Notes under the pieces: generated by a model
Seen by the model: only the letters and a program-made list of their open reading frames with translations
The model's database searches: none
Told to the model about the DNA's origin: nothing
Assembly: GCF_019890935.1 (NCBI RefSeq)
Contig: NZ_CP082333.1
Location: 212,001 to 276,000, forward strand
Reading direction: 5' to 3'
DNA: 64,000 nucleotides
Source of the DNA: Exiguobacterium acetylicum
Lineage (GTDB): Bacteria > Bacillota > Bacilli > Exiguobacteriales > Exiguobacteriaceae
In this document: one piece after another, positions 7,118 to 40,201 of the stretch
How the letters are laid out: the number at the start of each line of letters is the position of its first letter
How positions within the stretch are numbered: position 1 is the first letter of the stretch
Program-made: the position numbers and the translations under genes

Positions 7118-7159
7118 GGCGTAGTAATAACTAACTTAATTCAGTTCTCACTCAACCAG

Positions 7160-7345
7160 TGGGATGGAGGTTGCAATTCTTAAGAGTACGGTTACGGATG
7201 TCGTCAAGCGACAGATGAGGTGATCTGAAAGGAAGAATTGCCGAAATCAATCATCGCTTTGAAGATGATCGATTGGGATTAGATCAAATAGGTCTAATAC
7301 TGTCACAAGTCGGGTATCACCTACTTGTGGAGAGCTATCTTTCAC
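7160..7345 (+). ncRNA. Lysine riboswitch (L box)
   Basis: The conserved L-box blocks appear in order: GGAGGTTGCAATTCTTAAGA (7167-7186), GGTGATCTGAAAGGA (7219-7233), ATTGCCGAA (7238-7246), ACTGTCAC and the closing GGAGAGCTATCTT (7329-7341). These match the aptamer known from lysC and lysine permease leaders. With lysine bound, the downstream terminator should form and switch off the permease gene. The outer boundaries are approximate. Confidence 0.93.
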
Positions 7346-27756: not shown

Positions 27757-27844
27757 GCACGGTGTGAAAAAGTCTTTACTTTTTCGCTAAACCCCGTACA
27801 ATGGTACACATCACGAAAATCACGAAACGTAAACGTATAGCAAC

Positions 27845-29884
<2,040 letters not shown>

Positions 29885-35840: not shown

Positions 35841-35869
35841 TTGCGTCAGGGATGAAACGGTTGTACTAT
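35841..35869 (+). promoter_or_regulatory. Promoter of the T-box transcript
   Basis: TTGCGT (35841-35846) and TACTAT (35864-35869) are 17 bases apart, about 30 bases before the T-box stem I. Confidence 0.5.
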
Positions 35870-35894: not shown

Positions 35895-36176
35895 TCTGCA
35901 TGCGTAGATGGGAAGAGTAAAGTGATCAGAAATCGATAGAGAGTCTCTGTTGCTGGAAATGAGACGATTTCGTCATTTGAAGATGGTCCCGGAGCAGTCG
36001 GAAGAACGTGAACCGTGTTCATCAGTAGAACCGACCGGTAGGACGGATACCGTTAGCATTCCATGGAGTCTCGTACTCCTAGAGGTGGCTGAACGTGAGT
36101 TGAGCCATGAACGAAGGTGGTACCACGTGATCAGACATCACGTCCTGAGAGATGAGGGCGTGGTGTCTTTTTTGTG
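35895..36176 (+). ncRNA. T-box leader, methionine-specific
   Basis: Stem I is readable: the loop-E strand AGAGTAA, the AGAGAG bulge, the apical GCTGG, and on the return arm GAA-G-ATG-G. By the rule seen in glyQS (GAA, one base, codon) the specifier is ATG at 35983-35985, meaning tRNA-Met. The T-box sequence AAGGTGGTACCACG is at 36114-36127; its TGGT pairs with ACCA, requiring discriminator A, as in tRNA-Met. A terminator (about 36133-36176, GACATCACGTCCT with AGGGCGTGGTGTC, then six T) follows. Uncharged tRNA-Met should allow read-through into the SAM hydrolase and ECF genes. Confidence 0.92.
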
Positions 36177-36206
36177 GGGACGTTCGCGCAGGAGGAGGAT
36201 GACGAG

Positions 36207-37064
36207 ATGGCAGAAGCATTGGTATTGCAATCAGACTTTGGCGTGAGTGATGGGGCAGTGAGTGCAATGTACGGGGTAGCGCATAGCATCAATCCAGAGA
36301 TTCGGATTTTTGATTTGACGCACGACATTCCACCGTTTCACATTTGGGAAGCGTCCTATCGGTTACTGCAGACAGTGCCGTACTGGACGGAGCAAACGGT
36401 GTTCGTTTCTGTCGTTGATCCAGGTGTCGGGTCAAGTCGAAAGAGTGTCGTCGCGCGGACGCATGCGAATCAATACATCATCACACCGGATAACGGAACG
36501 TTGACGCACCTGTGGCAAGGCGGATACATTGCTGAAGTGAGACAACTCGATGATCAACGGCATCGCTTACCGCGGATGGGGGAATCGTATACGTTCCACG
36601 GACGGGATATCTTTGCTTTCACGGGTGCTCGATTATCAAGCCATGTCATCACCTTCGAGGAAGTAGGACCCGTTTTACCTGTTGCGGACATCGTCTTGCT
36701 CGACCGGACAGTTGCCTCGTCGTCGAACAGCGGTGTTACCGGTATCGTCGAGATTCTCGATGTTCGCTTCGGAAATGTCTGGACGAATATTCCGGTCGCT
36801 CTCGTCCGTCAGGCGGGTCTCGACATCGGTAGCCAGGTCAAGGTAACGATTTCGTACCGGGAACGGATCGTCTATGAACAGACACTGCTCTTTGGTCATT
36901 CGTTCGCCGACGTGCCAGTCGGTTCAGGCGTCGTTTACATCAATTCGCTGGATCAGATTGCTCTTGCCTTGAATCAAGGTTCGTTTGCGCATGCATTTGA
37001 AGTTGGAATCGGAAATGACTGGAGTGTTACCGTACAACACATCAAAGGAGGAGATCGAACATGA
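36207..37064 (+). CDS. SAM hydrolase (S-adenosylmethionine hydroxide adenosyltransferase family)
   Basis: A 285-residue protein of the DUF62/SAM hydroxide adenosyltransferase family, which splits S-adenosylmethionine with water into adenosine and methionine. The Asp-Arg-His set of the family is visible as [10 protein letters not shown] and FHGRD, and [22 protein letters not shown] and FGNVWTNI are further signatures. The start at 36207 has AGGAGGAGG 8 bases upstream; the longer frame from 36174 begins inside the terminator. It is the first gene after a methionine T-box and overlaps the next gene by 4 bases. Cleaving SAM to regain methionine under methionine starvation is a reasonable inference. 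Confidence 0.9.
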
Positions 37065-37612
37065 AAGGATTTACGACAAAACAGATCGTCGCAACCGGGA
37101 TCGGAGCAGCTGTATTCATCATTTTAAGTCGATTCGCTGCGATTCCGACAGGCGTACCGAACACGTCAATCGAGACAGCCTATGCATTTCTCGCATTCAT
37201 GGCAGTTTTGTTCGGACCGGTCACAGCCGGTTTGATTGGTTTAATCGGTCATGGATTAAAAGATGCGATTTTATATGGTTCCCCATGGTGGAGTTGGGTC
37301 ATCGTCTCCGGCTTCGTCGGGTTTGGCATCGGACTGATCGCTAACCGGATTCGCTTAGAAGAAGGCGGATTGACGACACGTAAAATCGTCTTATTCAATG
37401 CGACACAAGCCATCGTGCAAGCGATCGGTTGGATCATCATTGCACCGGTACTCGATATCTTAATTTACACGGAGCCGGCGAATAAAGTCTTCGTCCAAGG
37501 GGCTGTCGCTGCGACATCAAATATCTTGACAGTCGGTGTCATTGGAACATTGTTACTCGTCACGTATGCCAAAACAAGAAGTAAAGCAGGCAGCTTGAAA
37601 CGCGAAGTTTGA
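37061..37612 (+). CDS. UPF0397 family ECF transporter S component (MtsT-like)
   Basis: A 183-residue, five- to six-helix substrate-binding membrane protein. [21 protein letters not shown] at the N-terminus, [19 protein letters not shown] and [14 protein letters not shown] are the clear marks of UPF0397. In other Bacillota this S component occurs with methionine-linked regulation and is predicted to take up methionine or a precursor. Here the methionine T-box supports that. It starts inside the stop region of the SAM hydrolase gene (ATGA overlap), so the two are coupled. A large hairpin follows before the ATPase gene. The transported compound could also be SAM or a methylthio compound. Confidence 0.88.
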
Positions 37613-37615
37613 CCG

Positions 37616-37662
37616 AATGAGCTATGATCCTGTGCGAAGAGTCGACAGGATCATAGCTCATT
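37616..37662 (+). other. Perfect 18-bp intra-operon hairpin
   Basis: AATGAGCTATGATCCTGT (37616-37633) is exactly complementary to 37645-37662 across an 11-base loop. No T-run follows, so it is not a normal terminator. It separates the S-component stop from the ribosome binding site of the ATPase gene. Confidence 0.8.
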
Positions 37663-37682
37663 TGGCTTGGGGGGAGAAAGAC

Positions 37683-39386
37683 ATGACAAACGTGATTGAA
37701 TTTCAGGATTTTTCATTTACATATCGGAGTCAGTCGGAACCGACACTCCGGCAGATTCAGTTAACGATTCAAGCAGGAGAACGCATCTTAATCGTTGGAC
37801 CGTCGGGTTCAGGAAAAAGTACGCTCGCCCAGTGCATCAATGGGTTGATTCCGTTCTCGTACCCGGGAACGTGGGAAGGACAGGTCCTGATCAAAGGACA
37901 AGATGCCCGGGAGTTATCGTTATTTGATCGTTCGTTGCATATTGGCACGGTGTTACAGGATCCAGATGCGCAGTTCGTTGGTTTATCGGTTGGCGAAGAC
38001 ATCGCCTTTGCGCTCGAGAACAAACAGACTAGGCGACCAGAAATGCAGGAGATCGTCGAACGCGTCGCACGGATGACGGATGTCGAGACGCTCTTGCACG
38101 CACGATTGAATGATCTATCAGGCGGACAACGACAGCGGGCGGCATTAGCCGGAGTCCTCGTCGAAGATGCGGATATCTTACTGTTTGATGAACCGCTCGC
38201 GAATCTCGATCCGGTAGCGGGACAAGAAGCGATGGCGCTTATGGATCGACTGCAACGTGATACGAACCGCACACTGATCGTCGTCGAACATCGAATCGAG
38301 GATGTACTCGTCATTCCGTTTGACCGCATCATCGTCATGGTCGATGGGGAAATCGTTGCCGATGACCATCCGGATGTCATCTTAAGCAATGGCGTGCTTC
38401 AACAAGCGATCTTGCGTGAACCCCTCTATGTCAGTGCCGCACGCTGGGCTGGTATGACTGTTGAACCTGTGGACCAGCCGAGCCGCATCGATCCCTTTTT
38501 AAAACAGTTCAATCAGACGGACGTGTTAGAGCGTTTAGAGGAAACGCCTCAAAAAGAGACTGCAACCGCTACTGCGTTGCTCGAACTTGAACAGTTGGCG
38601 TTTCATTATCGTCAAGGAACACCGGTGCTTGAGAATGTGACGGCGACTTTTCAAAAAGGAACACTGACGACGATCGTCGGTCAGAATGGTGCCGGGAAAT
38701 CCACCCTTGCGAAAGTGTTGAGTGGTTATCAACGGACGACAGGTGGTCAGATCCTACTTGACGGAACTGATATCACGAACCAATCAATCACAGAGCGAGC
38801 AGGAACGATCGGATTCGTCCTGCAAAACCCAAATCATATGATTTCAAAACACCTTGTGCAAGAAGAAATCCGCTACGGGATGCAGGCGCTCGGATTAAGT
38901 GAAGCGGAAGAAAACGAGCGTCTCGAGCAGACATTACGTCGTTGTGGATTATATCCGTTTCGTAATTGGCCGATTCAAGCACTGAGTTTTGGTCAGAAGA
39001 AACGAGTGACGATTGCTTCGATTCTCGTTCGACGACCGGATATCTTGATTCTCGATGAACCAACAGCCGGTCAAGATTACCGGCATTATTCGGATATGAT
39101 GGACTTTTTAGAAGGATTGAAGCAGGACGGGATGACGTTACTCATCATCACGCACGACATGCACCTCGTCTTAGAATACAGCGACCAAGTCTGCCTCGTG
39201 CAAGCTGGGCGTATCCGTTATGCTGGGACATCATTTGGACTGCTGAATCAAGAACAATTACTGCATCACGCCCATTTAAAACAAACATCACTCTTTACGA
39301 TAGCTCAATATCTCGATATAGACCCGGAACGATTCGTCGAGTCCGTGATTACGGCGGAGCGAAAGGAGCGGGAACAATGGCTGTAG
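37683..39386 (+). CDS. ECF transporter ATPase, two fused ABC domains
   Basis: A 567-residue cytosolic protein with two complete ABC ATPase domains, i.e. EcfA and EcfA' in one chain. The first has GPSGSGKST (Walker A), LSGGQRQRAALAG (signature) and LLFDEP (Walker B); the second, from about residue 300, has GQNGAGKST, LSFGQKKRVTIAS and ILILDEPTAGQD. The start at 37683 is supported by GGGGGGAG 6 bases upstream; an earlier in-frame ATG at 37617 lies inside the hairpin. It energises the UPF0397 S component through EcfT. It overlaps the EcfT gene by 10 bases. Confidence 0.92.
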   Translation: MTNVIEFQDFSFTYRSQSEPTLRQIQLTIQAGERILIVGPSGSGKSTLAQCINGLIPFSYPGTWEGQVLIKGQDARELSLFDRSLHIGTVLQDPDAQFVGLSVGEDIAFALENKQTRRPEMQEIVERVARMTDVETLLHARLNDLSGGQRQRAALAGVLVEDADILLFDEPLANLDPVAGQEAMALMDRLQRDTNRTLIVVEHRIEDVLVIPFDRIIVMVDGEIVADDHPDVILSNGVLQQAILREPLYVSAARWAGMTVEPVDQPSRIDPFLKQFNQTDVLERLEETPQKETATATALLELEQLAFHYRQGTPVLENVTATFQKGTLTTIVGQNGAGKSTLAKVLSGYQRTTGGQILLDGTDITNQSITERAGTIGFVLQNPNHMISKHLVQEEIRYGMQALGLSEAEENERLEQTLRRCGLYPFRNWPIQALSFGQKKRVTIASILVRRPDILILDEPTAGQDYRHYSDMMDFLEGLKQDGMTLLIITHDMHLVLEYSDQVCLVQAGRIRYAGTSFGLLNQEQLLHHAHLKQTSLFTIAQYLDIDPERFVESVITAERKEREQWL

Positions 39387-40201
39387 AAATGCTTGGTTAT
39401 ATTGAAAAAACGTCACCGATTCATCGCTTGACGGGAACGACGAAACTAATCGGATTCTTGTTATTTACGACAGCGACGATGTTCACCTATGATACACGCA
39501 TTTTACTTGTGATGGGGTTAGTCAGTATCGTGTTATTCCGCTTGTCGCGTATCCAGTTTCGGGAAGTTCGGTTCGTCTTGATCTTTACAGCAATTTTTGT
39601 CCTAATCAATGCGCTCGCTGTTTATCTGTTCGAACCAGAGCAGGGTGTAGCGATCTACGGATCACGTCACATCTTACTTGAAGGAATCGGAAGATTTACG
39701 GTGACCGCAGAACAATTATTTTATCTGTTCAATTTAATCTTAAAATACAGTGTGATCGTTCCGATTGCCGTGTTGTTTCTCGTGACGACCCATCCGACGG
39801 AGTTCGCTTCTTCGTTGAATCGGATTGGTGTTCCGTATAAGATTGCCTTTGCGGTCTCCTTAGCGCTCCGTTATATTCCGGACGTTCAATCTGATTTCCG
39901 GACGATCGCGAATGCTCAGGAAGCACGGGGGATTGCCGTCTCACACGGTTCCCTTTGGCAACGGGCACGTAATAGCATTCAGATTTTACTTCCGTTGCTA
40001 TTTACGAGTCTCGAGCGGATTGAGACGGTCAGTAACGCGATGGATCTCCGTGGATTCGGTGCCGGACGAAAGCGGACGTGGTACAATCAACAGACGATGA
40101 CACGAATCGATTATGTCGCGATCAGCTGTGTGCTACTTTTGACGGTTTTGTCATTCGTCGTCACTTTCTACGATGGCAACCGCTTTTATAATCCATTTTA
40201 A
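39377..40201 (+). CDS. ECF transporter transmembrane component EcfT
   Basis: A 274-residue membrane scaffold with about six helices. The two coupling motifs that bind the ATPases are present as AQEARG (about residue 180) and MDLRGFG (about residue 222), and SPIHRLTGTTKLIGF at the N-terminus is typical. Completes a solitary (group I) ECF module: S component, fused ATPases and T component in one operon. Overlaps the ATPase gene by 10 bases. A terminator lies about 45 bases downstream. Confidence 0.92.
   Translation: MAVEMLGYIEKTSPIHRLTGTTKLIGFLLFTTATMFTYDTRILLVMGLVSIVLFRLSRIQFREVRFVLIFTAIFVLINALAVYLFEPEQGVAIYGSRHILLEGIGRFTVTAEQLFYLFNLILKYSVIVPIAVLFLVTTHPTEFASSLNRIGVPYKIAFAVSLALRYIPDVQSDFRTIANAQEARGIAVSHGSLWQRARNSIQILLPLLFTSLERIETVSNAMDLRGFGAGRKRTWYNQQTMTRIDYVAISCVLLLTVLSFVVTFYDGNRFYNPF

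Follow-up and report, generated by a model that had tools for sequence, protein, structure and literature searches.

We analysed a stretch of 64,000 nucleotides of Exiguobacterium acetylicum DNA (NZ_CP082333.1; C1:212001-276000 of a 3.39-Mb genome), referred to here as the window. It carries a T-box leader followed by genes for a DUF62-type hydrolase of S-adenosylmethionine (SAM) and for an energy-coupling factor (ECF) transporter with an S component of the UPF0397 type. These genes very probably form a salvage module that responds to methionine and includes a hydrolase releasing methionine. On balance, and with less assurance, we favour a methionine-starvation salvage operon in which the hydrolase would release methionine from SAM and the ECF transporter would bring in a methionine-yielding compound. 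The leader, its specifier, the gene content and their conservation were computed; hydrolysis of SAM is predicted from the family of the enzyme.

According to the mechanism proposed, uncharged tRNA-Met would bind the T-box by its AUG specifier and UGGU bulge, the antiterminator would form and the hydrolase-ECF operon would be read. Methionine and adenosine would be released from SAM by the DUF62 enzyme, whose most plausible substrate is the useless (R,S) epimer. The transporter would bring in a compound from which methionine can be gained. SAM or a related adenosyl sulfonium is the best single candidate, a substrate of the SAM type being possible rather than probable. Import followed by hydrolysis, as the coupling of the two halves, is favoured but unproven. 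An enzyme that degrades SAM would defeat its own purpose if low SAM induced it, whereas control by low methionine is sensible provided that its role is to supply methionine. An (R,S)-selective enzyme would also spare the cell's own SAM.

The T-box leader and its specifier

When the leader region was searched alone with cmscan, it matched RF00230 over the entire model (positions 1-219 of 219) with 84.3 bits and an E-value of 5.2e-19. It is absent from the Rfam listing of the whole window at the gathering score, 84.3 bits being below the curated cut-off of 93. A genome-wide search returned 22 T-boxes including this one, and seven of the 22 (our leader among them) lie under the curated cut-off. 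A predicted terminator-like hairpin of 14 pairs (36133-36168), followed by a T run, overlaps the part of the model match that holds the antiterminator. The terminator scan of the window gave seven such sites against 4.5 expected, so that the argument from this hairpin rests on its placement within the T-box and not on the scan. Folding of the leader alone was mildly better than that of shuffled sequences (z -2.0; 8 of 200 shuffles were equally good). The sigma-70 scan detected no promoter upstream of the leader; by eye, TTGCGT-17-TACTAT at 35841-35869 is a promoter candidate.

The specifier region (35979-35990) reads GAA-G-AUG-G-UCCC, and the lower helix of stem I is formed by GGGA at 35910-35913 and UCCC at 35987-35990. 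The specifier was called by a script whose rule, which holds in most T-boxes of this genome, places a single base between the triplet and this helix; for the window leader it gives AUG. The rule was calibrated on the other T-boxes of the genome, where gene names are our own reading of the proteins and not the result of a family search. Among leaders with a known cognate, 12 gave a reading, and the right amino acid was named for 11 of them (trpS, hisS-aspS, leuS, two trp leaders, asnA, ileS, argS, cysS, alaS and glyQS); pheST was misread and was read by eye instead. The script was silent for seven T-boxes (tyrS, serS, valS, a second ileS, lysS, thrS and an MFS gene), none of which shows AUG by eye. 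The window leader is the sole AUG reading among the 22, several of which were read by eye. Elsewhere in the genome the T-box L006 (C1:1118370-1118574; numbers with the prefix L are our labels for loci and leaders) reads UAC (Tyr), and the gene downstream resembles phenylalanine hydroxylase by eye.

The six CAT-anticodon tRNA genes examined all carry discriminator A by eye, and tRNA-Asp and tRNA-Trp carry G. The earlier note on this DNA, written from the letters and a list of open reading frames, had proposed a methionine T-box with a bulge (TGGT) suited to discriminator A; the covariance search, the specifier call and the tRNA genes bear this out, and no other specifier was assigned. Judged by the AUG specifier and by the bulge matching the discriminator A of tRNA-Met, the leader is a methionine-specific T-box. 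Since the specifier is AUG and the genome has 11 SAM-I riboswitches elsewhere, the operon is predicted to sense tRNA-Met and not SAM.

The same leader recurs in relatives. For 49 hydrolase genes from other genomes of the class, the preceding 600 bases were scanned with all Rfam families (E<=0.01), and a T-box was found in 23 of them (18/20, 5/20 and 0/9 in three batches; 24/50 when our own is counted). An AUGG specifier and a UGGU bulge are present in all 23. No other Rfam family, the SAM-I riboswitch included, was detected in these 49 leaders. A simple SAM-I pattern was likewise not found within 900 bases before the named hydrolase loci, which are the best 80 of at least 569 relatives, and SAM-I was rejected as an alternative leader. 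A T-box core pattern occurs within 900 bases upstream in 26 of these 80 loci. By cmscan, T-boxes were found in L257, L281 and L314 and before a Listeria hydrolase, with a weak one in L304.

The specifier script was then run on 52 leaders of relatives and found a site in 48. The four without a site under its filter were L162, L247, L257 and L281, and three of them (L162, L257, L281) show AUGG by eye. In the 48 leaders read, the gap between AUG and the helix is one base in 29, two bases in 13 and unresolved in six; the bulge base is U in 47 and A in one. One of the 13 two-base cases, L177, was misplaced by the script, which took a second AUGG instead of the specifier. Two-base leaders formally permit UGG; because of the bulge U and the other methionine links they are judged to be methionine leaders.

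Genes of the operon

The features of the locus are collected in Table 1. The hydrolase, the S component, the fused ATPases and EcfT named by the earlier note were all recovered by family models, and the S component, two ATPase halves and EcfT are predicted to make up a complete ECF transporter. The note had also described overlapping frames. Overlaps exist between the hydrolase and S genes (ATGA, 37061-37064) and between the ATPase and EcfT genes (39377-39386); the S and ATPase genes do not overlap, being separated by 70 bases that hold a hairpin of 18 bp. This repeat is possibly a partial terminator or processing site, which would set expression of S above that of the ATPase and EcfT. In the relatives L105-L117 hairpins are visible by eye at the same gap; those of L113-L117 differ in sequence and some have T runs.

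Table 1. Features of the leader and operon in the window (positions from the first base of the window)
Feature	Position	Strand	Evidence
T-box leader (RF00230), attenuation type	35896..36150	+	cmscan of the region alone; genome-wide search
AUG triplet in the specifier loop of stem I	35983..35985	+	one-base rule calibrated on T-boxes of this genome; AUGG in relatives
T-box bulge UGGU, fits discriminator A	36118..36121	+	sequence; tRNA ends; leaders of relatives
Hairpin resembling a terminator, with T run; overlaps the antiterminator	36133..36173	+	terminator scan; fold
DUF62 / SAM hydroxide adenosyltransferase (predicted SAM hydrolase), 285 aa	36207..37064	+	PF01887, E 2.5e-49; PF20257, E 1.8e-20
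ECF S component, UPF0397 / PRK13661 type, 183 aa	37061..37612	+	PF07155, E 6.8e-48; NF010182, 248 bits
Perfect inverted repeat of 18 bp in the gap from S to ATPase	37616..37662	+	sequence
Fused ECF ATPase, two halves, 567 aa	37683..39386	+	ABC_tran twice; TIGR04520 and TIGR04521 above cut-offs
EcfT transmembrane component, 274 aa	39377..40201	+	PF02361, E 1.5e-31

Hydrolysis of SAM by the window enzyme is expected from its family. The catalytic triad is D71, R78 and H131, and identical letters are aligned in PDB 2zbu; the other PDB relatives are 1wu8 and 22uy. The NCBIfam hydrolase model scored 142.7 bits, far under its cut-off of 350. According to the part of PMC10491745 cited here, the Asp/Arg/His triad is confined to DUF62 proteins and missing from halogenases. 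A halogenase was ruled out by the presence of the triad, and the NCBIfam fluorinase model scored 97.1 of 400 bits. The triad is intact in 136 of 144 hydrolase open reading frames (129 loci). In the exceptions His is replaced by Tyr or Phe in six (L125, L128, L258, L269, L305, L312) and by Asp in one, and Arg is altered in the remnant L153. At L125 and L128 a T-box is present and S is missing; L125 is followed by genes read as cysH, sat and cysC.

An AlphaFold2 model of the S component (27 sequences; pLDDT 92) has the S-component fold and matched ThiT (4tkr) with Z 18.2 and rmsd 3.3 over 166 aligned residues, RibU, FolT and PanT being among the further matches. The modelled fold does not give the cargo, and no PDB sequence matched the S component at E<=1. 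In Pfam and NCBIfam the family is named as a riboflavin importer; the Rfam matches of the window contain no FMN element. They do include a lysine riboswitch (7157-7345) and a purine riboswitch (27827-27926), both above the gathering scores. The gene after EcfT is cstA-like (PF02554) and lies on the opposite strand.

Pairing of the two halves and further methionine links

The survey covered 398 genomes of the class, with hydrolases accepted at E<=1e-10 and S matches of over 150 bits counted as strong. A hydrolase was found in 50 genomes and an S match in 63 (55 strong). Both genes occur in 39 genomes, in every one of which they are adjacent (39/39); none has the two apart. Our own locus excluded, 38 of 49 loci have S 0-201 bases downstream of the hydrolase in the same orientation, and the ATPase gene follows S within about 860 bases in 28 of these 38, being absent from the stretch or 5-7 kb off in the other 10. 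In the best 80 of at least 569 loci, S is found within 400 bases downstream of the hydrolase in 34. The association of the hydrolase with an ECF transporter of UPF0397 type is real, in Bacilli and Clostridia. The E-value of the T-box, the adjacency in 39/39 genomes and the AUGG and UGGU motifs in 23/23 leaders place the finding beyond chance. The earlier note had placed both halves in one methionine regulon and had looked to related genomes for their association; the pairing is conserved there. Its further idea, uptake of a SAM-like or methylthio compound from which methionine is then released, is the coupling that we favour as a hypothesis. Within the genus the distribution is patchy, a hydrolase being present in 10 of the 19 genomes listed, our own included, in a listing that gives genomes without a match in part.

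More than one hydrolase gene was found in 14 of the 129 loci, namely 13 clostridial or erysipelotrichial ones and L151, and ECF genes are present in those of the 13 that are listed in full. The order in L274 is hydrolase, ATPase, EcfT, second hydrolase and S. L313 and L324 have the same order plus a protein between the first hydrolase and the ATPase (in L313, GNAT and GntR/UTRA by Pfam). In L259 the hydrolase is followed by a diverged S, the ATPase, EcfT and two further hydrolases. Hydrolase paralogues within ECF operons are the strongest hint in the sequences that enzyme and transporter may share a substrate. L285 and L301 are likewise multi-hydrolase ECF operons with a diverged S component. 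In L151 two tandem DUF62 proteins have N-termini resembling signal peptides, one with a lipobox-like LFGC, which raises the question of hydrolysis outside the cell.

Other links with methionine were found in further loci. The family f26 corresponds to streptococci by our own reading of gene content, which is not a taxonomy call. Six of its loci (L139, L140, L142-L145) have an ABC-ATPase fragment upstream. In L139 Pfam identified ABC_tran with the NIL domain of MetN, then a permease, the hydrolase and S; the order in L143 is permease, Trep_Strep protein, hydrolase and S. The streptococcal MET box is given as TATAGTTTnAAACTATA in the cited part of PMC2627894. A palindrome resembling it lies at -103 to -111 in five of 14 f26 leaders, with 2, 3, 3, 4 and 4 mismatches; it was equalled by 0, 1, 1, 10 and 18 of 200 shuffles, respectively. 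On a conjugative plasmid of Enterococcus faecium (L328; NZ_CP064407.1, 76977-87804) the hydrolase, S, ATPase and EcfT genes lie between two copies of IS1216, and mmuM and an amino-acid permease gene are located just outside this segment. Judging from these gene orders and leaders, the methionine link of hydrolase loci recurs by several means: the T-box, metNI, MET-box-like sites and the mmuM neighbourhood.

Expression data exist for Streptococcus pneumoniae. In the part of PMC5359408 cited here, spd-0431, spd-0432 and spd-0434 of strain D39 rise 1.8, 1.8 and 1.6 fold without methionine, spd-0431 has a CmhR site and a CmhR-dependent promoter, and the adjoining upstream Trk genes are raised 2.0-2.4 fold. 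In L134 the genes for hydrolase, S, ATPase and EcfT come, in this order, after two open reading frames that we take for Trk genes. By this order, spd-0431, spd-0432 and spd-0434 are very probably the hydrolase, S and ATPase of the same module, spd-0432 being a UPF0397 protein by its database name. Induction by methionine shortage, which we infer for the window operon, is published for this probable orthologue.

Alternative explanations and meaning

It is possible, if not probable, that the operon combines two parallel methionine functions, the ECF transporter importing methionine or a precursor and the hydrolase recycling internal SAM, with no common substrate. A number of observations weigh against the salvage operon favoured here, and those in which one half occurs alone favour parallel functions. 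S, ATPase and EcfT genes occur in genomes without a hydrolase, and 16 of the 55 strong S genes lie in genomes with no hydrolase match; Rfam found no leader ahead of such S-only genes in the nine loci scanned of 16. A tree was built from 84 S proteins; it holds 14 of the 16 S-only genes and omits eight near-identical same-genus rows. In it the S-only genes are nested among linked ones, at least five changes being needed. The residues H64, D68, W76, W79, W124, D132, E138, K142, Q146 and N154 are present in 14/14 S-only and 68-78/78 linked proteins; position 77 is F in 9/14 S-only genes, and position 120 also differs in frequency from linked genes. The S-only genes and the shared conserved residues suggest a transporter useful without the hydrolase. 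Eleven of the 50 hydrolase genomes lack an S match, and five of these 11 retain the T-box (leaders L174, L176, L177, L178 and L180). Also among the 11 are L153, a short remnant running into EcfT, and L147, which has an internal stop; L153 looks as if the end of the hydrolase, S and the ATPase had been deleted. A Listeria record has the T-box and hydrolase with no ECF gene within about 5 kb, the stretch examined. These S-only genomes and T-box hydrolases without an adjacent ECF indicate that each half can function by itself. A 'Methionine precursor' ECF family with MtsU, as listed in TCDB according to the cited part of PMC3654945, would also agree with parallel functions if UPF0397 corresponds to MtsT. 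Further points count against the salvage operon: nine of the 14 f26 leaders have no MET box, the response in pneumococcus is a modest 1.6-1.8 fold, and the genes just upstream rise more, 2.0-2.6 fold (cited part of PMC5359408). The parallel-function explanation is in turn opposed by the constant adjacency of the two genes in genomes that have both, and the second or third hydrolase after EcfT in several clostridial operons fits a common substrate better.

A housekeeping role of the hydrolase in (R,S)-SAM repair, with methionine control secondary and an unrelated, vitamin-like ECF cargo such as lipoate, appears improbable. StDUF62 hydrolyses only (R,S)-SAM and is proposed to prevent its build-up (PMC12120602 and PMC10491745, in the parts cited). 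A lipoate-protein ligase gene (lplA, by Pfam) lies beside the hydrolase-S pair in L149, and an lplA-like gene adjoins S by eye in the S-only loci L235 and L236, which hints at another cargo and speaks also against the salvage operon. However, the ties to uncharged tRNA-Met, metNI and the MET box are unneeded for a repair enzyme, and no lplA-like neighbour was seen by eye in the gene lists examined for Exiguobacterium, Bacillaceae and clostridia. Finally, a Trp (UGG) or Asp (GAU) specifier, which would place the operon outside the methionine regulon, is highly improbable and was rejected. AUGG does allow UGG one base further on, and the two-base gap of the 13 leaders would suit this. The bulge U also occurs in the hisS-aspS leader and one trp leader of this genome, so that the discriminator argument is not absolute. 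Against these points, exactly one base separates AUG from the helix in the window leader and in the Exiguobacterium-family leaders read by script, GAU is not kept outside that family, and the bulge U of 47/48 leaders pairs with discriminator A and not with the G of the Trp and Asp tRNAs here. The remaining methionine links are independent of the T-box. Within the salvage operon that we favour, the most specific version is rather unlikely: the ECF transporter would import external SAM, which epimerises outside, and an (R,S)-selective hydrolase would make methionine and adenosine from the spent epimer.

Methionine T-boxes are present in Firmicutes, for example in Staphylococcus aureus (work cited in PMC10850355). 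Sensing of tRNA-Met is common to these and to the window leader, which here precedes a SAM-degrading enzyme and an ECF importer. The methionine-precursor system of TCDB is MtsTUV in full. As in the window, its S component, two ATPase halves and EcfT are encoded in one operon with a predicted methionine link; the window transporter is joined to a SAM hydrolase. The window hydrolase shares Pfam domains, triad and near whole-chain similarity with StDUF62 and PH0463 (PDB 1wu8, 2wr8), and differs in its methionine T-box and ECF genes, neither of which is mentioned for those enzymes in the parts of the reports cited. The streptococcal CmhR/MtaR regulon, with very probably the same genes, is induced without methionine, as described in the cited parts of PMC5359408 and PMC2627894, by a LysR-type activator and not by a T-box. 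In the literature searched, no report of UPF0397 or of the hydrolase-ECF pairing was found, although an earlier mention of the pairing is possible. The cited parts of the DUF62 hydrolase literature name no transporter alongside the enzyme. The same searches gave no ECF importer for a sulfonium cofactor and, among the titles listed, none relevant to a SAM transporter.

Overall, the data suggest a role in methionine salvage for an enzyme family whose natural job is disputed. In Firmicutes the enzyme appears under methionine control by varied devices, mostly with a dedicated importer adjoining, and the role of the enzyme and the cargo of the transporter become addressable together. The genes of the pneumococcal methionine regulon called hypothetical in PMC5359408 (the spd-0431 group, in the part cited) probably gain a meaning. 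If SAM import followed by (R,S)-selective hydrolysis is true, it would constitute a SAM-salvage pathway and the physiological role missing for the DUF62 family. The transporter would be an ECF importer for a sulfonium cofactor, and a starving cell could break down the SAM that it scavenges while sparing its own (S,S)-SAM.

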